From positions 786,501 to 850,500 of the forward strand of contig NZ_CP010535.1 of the NCBI RefSeq assembly GCF_001430825.1: DNA of 64,000 nt. The letters are read 5' to 3'. The notes beneath the pieces are model-generated. The model was not told where the DNA came from. It did no database searches and was given only the letters and a program-made list of their open reading frames with translations. Every line of letters starts with the position of its first letter. Within the stretch, counting starts at the first letter, position 1. The DNA comes from Sediminicola sp. YIK13. GTDB lineage: Bacteria > Bacteroidota > Bacteroidia > Flavobacteriales > Flavobacteriaceae. The translations under genes and the position numbers were made by a program. Below are positions 29,443 to 34,681 of the stretch, in pieces.

Positions 29443-32277
29443 CTACAAACCTAATTCTTTTCTTAGAAATTTAGAGGTGTAACTCTTTTTATCTTTTGCT
29501 ATTTCTTCTGGTGTACCTTTGGCGACCAGCTTACCACCACCACGACCTCCTTCATAACCTATATCGATCACATGATCCACCATTTTGATGACGTCCATGT
29601 TATGTTCGATGACCAAAACGGTATTTCCCTTATCCACCAATTTGTTCAGTACGTTCATCAATACCCTAATATCCTCGAAGTGCAAGCCAGTTGTAGGCTC
29701 ATCCAAAATGTAGAAGGTATTGCCAGTATCCCTTTTAGATAGTTCTGTGGCCAACTTAATACGTTGTGCCTCCCCACCAGATAGGGTGGTAGATTGCTGC
29801 CCCAATGAAATATAGCCCAGGCCTACATCTTGAATGGTCTTGACCTTTCTATAAATTTTGGGGATGTTTTCAAAAAAGTCTACAGCTTCGTTAATAGTCA
29901 TTTCCAAAACATCTGCTATTGATTTACCCTTGTACCTTATTTCGAGGGTTTCCCTGTTGAAGCGTTTCCCATTACAGGTCTCACATTCTACATAAACATC
30001 GGGCAGAAAATTCATCTCGATTACCCGTAAACCACCACCTTGACACGTTTCACATCGTCCTCCTTTTACATTGAAACTAAAACGTCCCAATTTGTAGCCT
30101 CTTATGGCTGCTTCTTGGGTTTTGGCAAAGAGGGCCCTAATTTCGCTAAATACCCCTGTATAGGTTGCAGGATTGGACCTCGGTGTTCTTCCAATTGGAG
30201 ATTGGTTGATATCAATGACTTTATCTATGTGCTCTAGGCCCTTTATTTTTTTGTAGGGCATTGGTTTTTTAACACCATTAAAATAATAGGCATTTAGGAT
30301 AGGGTAGAGGGTCTCATTGATCAAAGTGGATTTACCACTTCCCGACACTCCGGTAACCCCGATCATTTTCCCCAAGGGAAATTCTGCCGTAACGTTTTTA
30401 AGATTGTTTCCCGTACATCCGGAAAGTACAATACTCTTTCCGTTGCCTTCCCTGCGGCTTTCGGGAACTGCTATTTTTTTAACACCGGTAATATAATCTG
30501 CTGTTAAAGTGTGTTCATTTTTTAAATCCTTCGGTTTCCCTTGGGAGATAATTTCTCCTCCATGTCTACCGGCTTTTGGACCAATATCAATGACGTGGTC
30601 TGCCCTTTCTATCATATCCCTGTCGTGCTCCACCACGATCACGGAGTTTCCTAGATCCCTGAGGGCTTCCAAGGATTTTATCAAGCGTTCATTATCCCTT
30701 TGATGAAGTCCTATACTGGGCTCATCCAAAATATAAAGAACACCTACAAGCTGGGACCCAATTTGGGTGGCCAACCTGATCCGTTGGGCTTCCCCTCCGG
30801 AAAGGGACTTGGAACTTCTGTTAAGGGAGAGGTAGTCTAGCCCAACATCCAAAAGAAATTGGAGTCTTGTTTTTATCTCTTTTATAATTTCTTCAGCGAT
30901 GATCCTTTGGTTTCCAACCAAGTTTTTGTCAAGACCGCTAAAAAAGGCAGCAAGCTCTACGATGTCCAGATTGGAAAGCTCCGCAATGTTCTTTTCTTCA
31001 ATTTTAAAATAGAGCGACTCAATCCTTAAGCGGGACCCATTGCAGGTGGGACAGTTTATTTTGTCCATATATTCCTTTGCCCATCTTTTTATAGAGGTAG
31101 ATTCTGCCTCCTCAAATTGGTTCTTTAGAAAGTTGGAAATACCTTCATAATCTATTTTATATTGTCTTTTAACACCCAACGTTTTGGAGTCCACCTCAAA
31201 ACTTTCGGCACCCCCGTGCAGGATAATATCCAGGGCTTCCTCTGGGATGGTATTTATTGGGTCTGTAAGTTCAAACTCATAGCGCTGGGCAATGGTTTCA
31301 ATTTGCTTAAAGGCCCATGATTTTTTATATTCCCCTAATGGTGCGATTCCCCCGGCTTTAATGGATAGCTTTGGATTGGGAATAATTTTTTTGTCGTTTA
31401 CCTCGTGTACATTTCCCAAACCATTGCAATTGGGACACATTCCTTTTGGGGAGTTGAATGAAAAAGTATTGGGTTCTGGGGATGGATAAGAGATACCTGT
31501 TGTGGGGCACATCAGATCCCTACTGAAGTAGCGGGGAACTTCCTGACCTTCCTCTAGGATCATCAGTACATTTTCACCACTGTACATTGCTGTGTTTATG
31601 CTTTCAGAAAGGCGCTTATCCAAATCAGCGGAATCAGTAACTTTTAATCGGTCTATTACAATCTCAATATCATGGGTCTTGTATCGATCGACTTTCATTC
31701 CCTTTACGATATCCTTGATTTCCCCATCCACCCTGACTTTTACAAAGCCTTGTTTTGCAATCTGCTCAAAAAGCTCCCTATAATGTCCTTTTCGGGATTT
31801 TATAATAGGGGCAAGAACATTTATCTTTTTTTCGTTGAAATCTTCCTTGATGAGCTCTTTGATCTGTTCATCGCTATAGCTCACCATTTTTTCACCTGTA
31901 TTATAACTGTATGCATCACCTGCCCTGGCAAATAAGAGGCGTAAAAAATCATAAACCTCTGTGATAGTTCCTACGGTTGATCTTGGGGATTTTGAAGTGG
32001 TTTTCTGTTCTATGGCAATTACTGGAGAGAGTCCATCTATCTTGTCCACGTCCGGCCGTTCCAATCCTCCCAAAAATTGACGGGCATAGGCCGAGAAGGT
32101 TTCTATATATCGCCTTTGTCCTTCGGCATAGATAGTATCAAAGGCGAGGGATGATTTACCACTACCGGAAAGTCCCGTGATCACAACAAGTTTTTCTCTA
32201 GGAATGGTAACATCAATGTTTTTAAGGTTATGGACCCTAGCGCCCTTAACCTCAATATTTTCCTCGTAATTTATCAT
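29443..32277 (-). CDS. uvrA: excinuclease ABC subunit A
   Basis: A 944-residue UvrA, normal length. There are two ABC ATPase units with Walker [21 protein letters not shown] near residue 32 and [12 protein letters not shown] in the second half, and two signature motifs [12 protein letters not shown] and [12 protein letters not shown]. Zinc-finger cysteines are present in [19 protein letters not shown] and CETCQGGG...CETCNGKRF. It recognises bulky DNA lesions and loads UvrB in the cytoplasm. Upstream a possible -7 box lies at 32295-32302. A Tudor-like gene is divergent from it. Confidence 0.97.
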
Positions 32278-32993: not shown

Positions 32994-33767
32994 CTAAACA
33001 GCTGTTCTTTCGTTGAAAAACGGACGGTACGCTTTATTGGAAAAAGAAGCAGTTGGTTTCGGTAGGATATGTGATTGTATATCAATGTTTTTTAAATATC
33101 CATTACTTATATCCTTAACACCTTGACCCTCGTTTTTTGAAATATTGGAGAAGAAATCAGGATTCTTATAGTAGTCACCAAGATCAAGTGTAATTAGTTC
33201 AACCTTATAGCCTTCAAAATAGATGCCATAACCTCTCTTGCTGTCGTAAACAAGCCAATGCTGGTCTCTGTATTTAGATCTATAGTGCTTAGAGATTAAA
33301 GGGAGTACATCATAATCTGGAGCGATGACTGCGAAATAAACTGAATCTTTTGATTGATACATGTCCACAAATGCTTCCATATGTCTTTTTTCAGATCCTA
33401 CCAATTTGGCCAAGTGTCTTATCTTGGGTAGATCTTCCTCTGCGAACGATAAGGGAGTTCCGCTTGTTGAAAAAAACAATTGTTTGATATATCTGAACAA
33501 TATAAATTCAATGCCTTTAGCCTCACTTTGATAAGCGAAATAAACAGTTTTGATGGTCTCATGGCTCTTTTTTTCAATGCCGTGCCAGACCCTTTTTGCC
33601 AAGTCGATCTCCGTGCCTATAGTTTCAGTGTCCGAAAAAAGTTCTCTTTGCTTCCCGTTGTCCTTTTGAATGTCCATAACATTCCACTTTTGGTCAAAAG
33701 CTTTAAACACGGAGGTGAGAAAGCCATTAAAACTGCCGTCGTAAATTAAGATTTTAGCATTTTCCAT
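32994..33767 (-). CDS. putative DNA repair protein, TIGR03915/DUF4130 family
   Basis: A 257-residue protein beginning ILIYDGSFNGFLTSVFKAF, the hallmark start of this family, followed by the helical part and VGSEKRHMEAFVDMYQS and HYRSKYRDQHWLVYDSKRGYGIYF. Family members are linked to uracil-DNA-glycosylase-like and radical-SAM repair proteins and normally sit directly beside a radical-SAM partner (TIGR03916). That partner is not adjacent here. The gene is divergent from the LexA-like repressor, and both share the control region 33768-33913, so control by that repressor is likely. Confidence 0.75.
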   Translation of the reverse strand: MENAKILIYDGSFNGFLTSVFKAFDQKWNVMDIQKDNGKQRELFSDTETIGTEIDLAKRVWHGIEKKSHETIKTVYFAYQSEAKGIEFILFRYIKQLFFSTSGTPLSFAEEDLPKIRHLAKLVGSEKRHMEAFVDMYQSKDSVYFAVIAPDYDVLPLISKHYRSKYRDQHWLVYDSKRGYGIYFEGYKVELITLDLGDYYKNPDFFSNISKNEGQGVKDISNGYLKNIDIQSHILPKPTASFSNKAYRPFFNERTAV

Positions 33768-33831
33768 TTGAATAGGATTTAGATTCGATAAATGTCACAT
33801 TCTTGCTAACATGAAATTAATCTTGTAATCA

Positions 33832-33894
33832 TTCCAAAAATATGGAAATATTCCTAATTATGGAAATATTCCATAATTATTTTGGATATAATCC
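33832..33894. promoter_or_regulatory. operator array for the LexA-like repressor
   Basis: Three palindromes with the core GGA-W-ATA-W-TCC lie at 33844-33854, 33862-33872 and 33884-33894 (centres 18 and 22 bases apart). A fourth, looser pair of half sites TTCCA/TGGAA lies at 33832-33847. The third is the best: TTTTGGATATAATCCAAAA. Roughly two helical turns between centres and the position between two divergent genes fit a dimeric repressor that controls itself and its neighbour. Confidence 0.75.
33835..33842 (-). promoter_or_regulatory. -7 promoter element for the TIGR03915 gene
   Basis: On the minus strand TATTTTTG, a match to TAnnTTTG, 68 bases before the start at 33767. It falls inside the first operator half sites, so a bound repressor would block it. 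No good -33 box is seen. Confidence 0.4.
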
Positions 33895-33910
33895 AAAATG
33901 TGTATATTTG
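33881..33910 (+). promoter_or_regulatory. promoter of the LexA-like repressor
   Basis: TTTG (33881-33884), an 18-base spacer and TATATTTG (33903-33910): the full Bacteroidetes promoter geometry, the same spacing as the aroC promoter in this window. The third operator palindrome covers the -33 box. The ATG is only 3 bases beyond the -7 box, so the message may be leaderless. Confidence 0.6.
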
Positions 33911-33913
33911 AGA

Positions 33914-34681
33914 ATGGAAAATGACTTAGCAATTGAGGTAAAGAGATTTACGGACGTTCGAAGGGATTTGGGGTATACCCAATCAGAATTCGCGAAACTA
34001 TTGGGAATTTCAAATACTACCGCAGATATAGAGCGGGGAAGGACCAAGTTGTCCGGTAAAGTAGTGGCTGAATTGTTAAAGCAGTTTAAAATAAATCCAT
34101 TGTGGCTATTTGGGGAAGCCACCAATCAATATCTGGCAACCTCCAATGTAAGTGTCATTCCAAAAGTGGTGACCATTGATGCCAACGAAAATGAAAACAT
34201 GGTTTTGGTAAATGCCAAGGCGGCTGCGGGTTATCCGCAAAATATTCAGGATACCAGCTGGTACAGAAAATTACCAGCTTTTGATATACCCTTACCAGAA
34301 TTCAGGAATGCAACGTACAGAGGTTTTCAAGTAGAAGGCGATAGTATGTTGCCCAATTTGCGTCCGGGGGAGTGGGTCTTGGCAAAGGCCGTAGAAAGTA
34401 TCCAGGATGTCAGTGCCAACAAGATGTATGTGGTGGTCCTTCACGATGCCGTTTTGGTAAAGAAATTGGAGAAGTCCCCCAATGGATATAAAATGTCTTT
34501 AATATCCCTAAACGAGACTTACCCTCCGTATGAAGTGGATATGCAGCAAATACAGGAATTATGGCAGGTAAACAGCAAAATCACTTTTGGTTTGGATGCC
34601 ACTACAGAAACTGGGCTACTGAGACAACTTCAAGAATCGATGGAGGAATTAAAAAGCCAGATACGTTCCGTAAAAAATTAA
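33914..34681 (+). CDS. LexA-like XRE/S24 repressor
   Basis: A 255-residue regulator. Residues about 5-65 form an XRE-type helix-turn-helix (GYTQSEFAKLLGI, then TTADIERGRTKLS). The C-terminal half is an S24 self-cleaving peptidase: Ala105-Gly106 cleavage site in AKAAAGYP, Ser144 in EGDSMLP and Lys183 in VLVKKLEK, with spacings close to those of LexA. So it should cut itself when RecA filaments form and release its targets. The open frame continues 24 codons upstream through the operator array; I chose the ATG at 33914 since the domain starts there. A coiled C-terminal tail follows. LexA itself and a phage-type repressor are alternatives. Confidence 0.85.
   Translation: MENDLAIEVKRFTDVRRDLGYTQSEFAKLLGISNTTADIERGRTKLSGKVVAELLKQFKINPLWLFGEATNQYLATSNVSVIPKVVTIDANENENMVLVNAKAAAGYPQNIQDTSWYRKLPAFDIPLPEFRNATYRGFQVEGDSMLPNLRPGEWVLAKAVESIQDVSANKMYVVVLHDAVLVKKLEKSPNGYKMSLISLNETYPPYEVDMQQIQELWQVNSKITFGLDATTETGLLRQLQESMEELKSQIRSVKN

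Follow-up and report, generated by a model that had tools for sequence, protein, structure and literature searches.

The 64-kb window analysed here is part of the single 3.57-Mb contig that makes up the genome of Sediminicola sp. YIK13 (99.99% completeness). It contains a gene predicted to encode a non-canonical LexA repressor of 255 amino acids (positions 33914-34681, plus strand), hereafter lexA, and, divergently oriented to it, a gene for a putative DNA-repair protein of the TIGR03915/DUF4130 type (32994-33767, minus strand). Three boxes of the palindromic form GGAWATAWTCC lie in the intergenic region: O1 (GGAAATATTCC, 33844-33854), O2 (GGAAATATTCC, 33862-33872) and O3 (GGATATAATCC, 33884-33894), all exact matches, with start-to-start steps of 18 and 22 bp. 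A degenerate site of the form GTA-N5-TCC, O0 (GTAATCATTCC, 33825-33835), is located 19 bp from O1 and places the edge of the feature at about 33825.

The lexA locus

The exact motif occurs nowhere else in the 64 kb, where 0.32 matches are expected and none of 100 shuffles reached three, in agreement with the original prediction, made from the DNA letters, of three near-identical palindromes between divergent genes. The looser form GGA-N5-TCC is found 24 times in the window against 15.6 expected (4 of 100 shuffles reached 24). When the 146-bp intergenic region was letter-shuffled 100,000 times, one such site arose in 391 of the shuffled sequences and more than one in none. It is therefore the cluster of boxes, and not the half-sites, that represents the unusual feature.

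The boxes are interleaved with two candidate promoter elements of the form TAnnTTTG, which we take to be the Bacteroidetes -7 element. The putative element of lexA (TATATTTG, 33903-33910, plus strand) follows the end of O3 after 8 bp, and O3 itself is situated between this element and a -33-like TTTG; the earlier placement of one box on the promoter of the regulator gene therefore agrees with the predicted element. The putative element of the TIGR03915 gene (TATTTTTG, 33835-33842, minus strand) lies between O1 and O0. The start of lexA that matches those of its relatives is the ATG at 33914, while the ATG of the long open reading frame (ORF), at 33842, falls on the margin of O1.

Profile searches place an N-terminal HTH_3 domain (PF01381; 8.4e-8, 32.6 bits, cut-off 23) and a C-terminal Peptidase_S24 domain (6.5e-13, 48.8 bits, cut-off 23.3) in the lexA product. 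Numbered from the ATG at 33914, the cleavage-site residues Ala105 and Gly106 and the dyad Ser144/Lys183 had been positioned correctly in the original prediction, and each is invariant in all 81 aligned proteins. The winged-helix LexA DNA-binding domain (presumably PF01726) gave no match up to an E-value of 1 in the lexA product, which carries HTH_3 instead; of these domains, S24 alone was searched for throughout the genome. That search returned a single match, the lexA gene, and was positive in 10 of 14 control genomes. The genome also contains one RecA match and two Y-family polymerases.

Conservation of the operator array

A scan of named genomes yielded 500 LexA relatives, the best 80 of which were used; the named ones belong to Flavobacteriaceae, e.g. 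Arenibacter, Maribacter and Zobellia. At least two GGA-N5-TCC sites are present within 300 bp upstream of lexA in all 80 relatives, and the O1-18-O2-22/23-O3 geometry is found in 76. The O1-O2 step is 18 bp in 77 loci; for O2-O3, 59 loci have a step of 23 bp and 20 a step of 22 bp, counts which include three loci without the 18-bp pair. The distance between O3 and the aligned start ranges from 30 to 245 bp among the relatives, and therefore the conserved property is the internal geometry of the array.

Promoter elements and alignment columns were counted in 78 of 81 sequences, window included, after omission of the three loci (L148, L166 and L173) without the 18-bp pair. TAnnTTTG follows 19 bp after the start of O3 in 76 of the 78, and on the opposite strand it is found 12 bp from the first base of the outer box, between O1 and O0, in all of them. 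The letters of the spacers are variable across the array and their length is constant. Information amounts to 1.4-1.8 bit per 10-column block inside the array and 0.05-0.45 bit outside, although the columns were anchored ungapped, so that indels depress the outer values. O0, 19 bp beyond O1, is conserved as well, with G in 78, T in 77, A in 78 and TCC in 78 of the 78 sequences; its conservation may be partly due to overlap with the start point of the divergent gene.

In a more distant locus, L185, whose LexA is 61% identical, O0 is replaced by a full GGA-N5-TCC, giving four operators at steps of 19, 19 and 22 bp. The other four distant lexA loci keep the steps partly: 19 in L182; 20 and 23 in L204; 85 and 19 in L207; 43, 19 and 23 in L209. 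The array, O0-19-O1-18-O2-22/23-O3, is interlocked with both putative divergent promoters and is a modest new lead going beyond the consulted passages of PMC8565304.

Other boxes in the genome and the 19-bp module

Seven exact matches in the genome stand in front of genes: three at lexA/TIGR03915, two at a Pol IV-type dinB, one at a PA0069-family radical S-adenosylmethionine (SAM) gene and one at hemJ. The two dinB boxes, both TGGAAATATTCCA, are 19 bp apart, and dinB is followed by a gene, here referred to as dnaE, whose 999-residue product scores 481 bits (cut-off 434) against TIGR00594, the DNA polymerase III alpha superfamily. The exact box of the PA0069-family (SplB-type) gene is paired, at a distance of 19 bp, with a second box, TGGAATAAATCC. 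Boxes beyond the lexA locus are present before the dinB-dnaE operon and splB.

These sites share a module, GGA-N5-TCC-N-TNNN-TTTGGA-N5-TCC, whose boxes are 19 bp apart, the second box and the -7-type element having the TTTG in common. In the Sediminicola genome it occurs at dinB, splB and TIGR03915, the last with one mismatch, in O0; the -7-type element of dinB, TTAATTTG, is one letter off TAnnTTTG. With at most one mismatch allowed, a search of 60 genomes gave 43 module matches, spread over 22 genomes and absent from the other 38; the reversed control gave 5. According to tblastn, 27 of the 43, including the three described above, are located at lexA/TIGR0391x, dinB/dnaE or splB. One more (L191) lies upstream of a gene whose DEDD exonuclease product includes a UvrC-like region; genes of this type are also named in the published network (PMC8565304, main text). 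The module may accommodate one LexA dimer in the -33/-7 spacer and another over the start point, possibly in contact with each other. The remaining 15 matches were tied to no gene. The one inspected among these, L222 (G012:C19:332055; module at about 2056-2085), has a box pair 19 bp apart before adjacent ORFs of 319 and 187 amino acids, neither of which gave an NCBIfam match over the cut-off.

A looser pattern, TGGAWWWWWTCC, with 84 genome matches against 59 for its control, was used only for choosing places to inspect. The hemJ box, a perfect TGGAAATATTCCA at contig positions 2549041-2549051, 53 bp upstream of the gene, was rejected as evidence of regulon membership: any GGA-N5-TCC within 220 bp was found at only 3 of 27 hemJ loci (own included; 29 were fetched and the weak L261 and L262 omitted), at differing positions, so this box is probably a chance match. 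Single boxes with differing spacers were also seen at zwf and at an alpha/beta hydrolase gene. The uvrA gene (29443-32277, minus strand) is located two genes from lexA; its GGA-N5-TCC sites at 31221, 31433 and 32024 are all inside the ORF and therefore give no sign of SOS control.

TIGR03915 without its partner

The protein encoded opposite lexA matches TIGR03915 with 141 bits (cut-off 112) and DUF4130 with 1.2e-22. TIGR03915 usually accompanies a radical SAM protein, TIGR03916; a profile search of the whole Sediminicola genome gave no match to the latter. Among 199 genomes of the family, TIGR03915 is present in 64 (59 over the cut-off) and TIGR03916 in 45, all 45 of which have both. TIGR03915 scores are 249-286 bits in the 45 paired genomes and 57-218 bits in the 19 partnerless ones, own included, with no overlap. 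Five of the latter fall below the family cut-off; of these, the one in G154 is a fragment of 45 residues, and the genome of another, G172, is 86% complete. Around the 80 lexA loci, both genes lie within 3 kb in 28, TIGR03915 only in 50 and neither in 2.

For the comparison of paired and orphan proteins, in which orphan means no partner within 3 kb on either side on the contig (the genome-wide partner test being the separate 199-genome census) and the truncated L125 was omitted, mean TIGR03915 identity with and without partner was 72% and 40% at LexA identities of 80-85%, 73% and 47% at 85-90%, and 81% and 71% at 90-97%. The orphan proteins keep 31 core columns in at least 93% of 51 sequences, including G11, W61, K127, E131, P156, L157, R163, D175 and R178. 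From residue 214 on, 27 columns are conserved in the paired proteins (in 26 or all 27 of them); at these columns only 3 to 32 of the 51 orphans keep the paired residue. Selection therefore still acts on the core but not on the C-terminal segment, which is diverged or lost in the orphans and is perhaps the partner-facing part of the protein.

The structure model of TIGR03915, built with an alignment from 48 of 78 relatives, has a decent core (pLDDT 78.8), and comparison with the PDB gave no match below an E-value of 0.001. The best structural matches, PAP phosphatase and RecJ, have TM-scores below 0.4 and are not considered credible; a PDB sequence search returned one match, at an E-value of 0.25. 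In open PMC literature, a scope that does not extend to subscription papers and supplements, DUF4130, TIGR03915, TIGR03916 and COG4277 were found only in PMC3765255 and PMC8565304. Of the 64 sampled genera that carry TIGR03915, 19 have it without its partner. This represents a clean natural experiment, and in the window and most near relatives TIGR03915 still faces the SOS repressor. The partnerless protein is a second modest lead beyond the consulted passages of PMC8565304.

Proposed function and alternative explanations

S24 repressors with a PF01381 helix-turn-helix (HTH) domain serve as LexA in Bacteroidetes (Sanchez-Osuna et al. 2021; PMC8565304, main text, for this and the following), and one such group, mainly from Flavobacteriaceae, binds GGA-N5-TCC. 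The reported data for Salegentibacter agarivorans (WP_075324850.1) comprise gel shifts, in which site-directed mutants were used, and induction by mitomycin C. In the predicted network dinB predominates, frequently joined by a PolIII alpha gene; splB and the COG1573-COG4277 pair are also members, and several promoters carry two or more motif instances. It was the only paper on a non-canonical LexA regulator among the matches listed for open PMC literature, subscription papers and supplements lying outside that scope.

With high confidence, lexA is assigned as the SOS master repressor of its host and a member of the GGA-N5-TCC group of Bacteroidetes non-canonical LexA proteins. Its domains, residues and operator motif point to this family, the Salegentibacter protein itself having been compared by description only. 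The original prediction had proposed an SOS-like circuit in which the regulator represses itself and a DNA-repair gene. The reading as a putatively self-cleaving, LexA-like repressor of its own gene and of repair genes is well supported by the sole S24 match, the boxes at dinB-dnaE and splB and the homologous published system (PMC8565304), and the proposed mechanism holds by homology. The suggestion of novelty for a stand-in LexA that has an operator of its own falls, because both the family and the operator were described there in 2021.

In the proposed mechanism, LexA dimers would bind the boxes, as described for Salegentibacter, and cover the fixed array at their own locus. O3 would sit between the -33 and -7 elements of the lexA promoter and O1/O0 astride the -7 element of the TIGR03915 promoter, so that both genes would be shut off. 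At dinB-dnaE and the SplB-type radical SAM gene, repression would likewise come from the two boxes, 19 bp apart, that straddle the -7 element. Upon DNA damage, RecA filaments would trigger cleavage at Ala105-Gly106 by Ser144/Lys183, freeing all of these promoters and thereby inducing the genes in Sediminicola.

Several observations weigh against this assignment. The exact motif has 34 genome matches (the reversed control has 13), but a mechanical ORF caller places 27 of the 34 inside ORFs (one short ORF was re-inspected), and for this reason the motif count is set aside as evidence. No GGA-N5-TCC was found in the 3.8 kb read around recA (2621352-2622140, L034) or in the 3.4 kb read around the second Y-family polymerase gene. 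The recA gene is not induced in Salegentibacter (PMC8565304, main text), with which the lack of a nearby box here agrees. The AlphaFold model of LexA, based on an alignment of 23 of the 80 relatives and five more distant LexAs, is poor (pLDDT 60, pTM 0.43); its first structural matches are still phage repressors and LexA (TM-scores of 0.24-0.41 over the whole chain), which speaks weakly for the assignment. A PDB sequence search gave four short matches in the HTH region and one irrelevant match. The box-free recA and the 27 matches inside ORFs are also what a local autoregulator of lexA and TIGR03915 only, and not an SOS master, would leave. However, paired boxes are present at dinB-dnaE and splB in the same genome, and the association of the module with lexA/TIGR0391x, dinB/dnaE and splB accounts for 27 matches, against 5 for the reversed control in all, making such a restricted role very unlikely.

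An alternative reading of lexA as the CI-type repressor of a prophage, or what is left of one, acting on a phage switch only, is favoured by the CI-like HTH_3 and S24 architecture and by the divergent layout with multiple operators. Against PHROGs, LexA matches best a family of phage transcriptional repressors (8.7e-25), and the top structural match of the weak model is a lambda-186 hybrid repressor. However, TIGR03915 adjoins lexA in 78 of 80 relatives, boxes are found at the dinB-dnaE and splB promoters, and none of the eight neighbouring ORFs (28.7-38.8 kb) scanned against PHROGs credibly matched a phage structural or packaging family, a terminase match of UvrA at 6e-5 being spurious. A phage origin of this kind is highly improbable.

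Beyond the LexA assignment, a joint proposal can be put forward tentatively, as possible rather than probable: that the array is a lambda-OR-like cooperative LexA switch of fixed phase merged with two divergent promoters, that the general SOS promoter in this group is built from two boxes 19 bp apart straddling the -7 element, and that TIGR03915 has a damage-induced role free of TIGR03916. The cooperative step competes with an explanation in which shared ancestry or the -33/-7 constraint fixes the spacings, and this has a substantial chance of being right, only a little short of even. In its favour, two promoter-type elements mesh with the array, the 80 relatives are of common descent, the O2-O3 distance switches between 22 and 23 bp, and only L185 of the five distant loci keeps all steps, the other four keeping part. 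Against it stand the spacers, which change in letters and not in length, and the fall in information outside the array, even if the ungapped anchoring lowers the outer values. In the main text of PMC8565304 no word beginning 'cooperativ-' occurs, and the sole passage on spacing concerns spacing within the dyad.

Comparison with known systems

Like the TIGR03915-TIGR03916 (COG1573-COG4277) pair, the protein opposite lexA keeps the TIGR03915/DUF4130 core residues and has a SOS-box promoter, but TIGR03916 was not found in the genome and the C-terminal segment has diverged. With the canonical LexA of E. coli the regulator shares, as judged from its sequence, the S24 domain, the Ala-Gly site, the Ser/Lys dyad and autoregulation; unlike it, the protein has an N-terminal CI-like HTH_3 domain and not a winged helix, and its boxes are GGA-N5-TCC and not CTGT-N8-ACAG. 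In phage lambda, the CI operators OR1, OR2 and OR3 follow one another every 23 bp or so, with divergent promoters on either side. The Sediminicola locus likewise has several operators between divergent promoters and an S24 repressor with a CI-type HTH, but the repressor is a chromosomal regulator of repair genes, the steps are 19, 18 and 22/23 bp, and the facing gene is TIGR03915 and not a Cro-like repressor.

The closest resemblance is to the GGA-N5-TCC group typified by S. agarivorans (PMC8565304, main text), with HTH_3 and S24 domains, the Ala-Gly and Ser/Lys residues, boxes at its own promoter, an origin in Flavobacteriaceae and a regulon of dinB with the PolIII alpha gene and splB, assigned here by motif. 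Unlike in the Salegentibacter account, no box was found near recA here, TIGR03915 faces lexA without a radical SAM partner, and the rigid three-plus-one spacing goes unmentioned in the consulted passages of that paper. The locus thus extends the 2021 non-canonical LexA system by a conserved fixed-step operator array merged with Bacteroidetes-type promoter elements, a fine structure that is testable.
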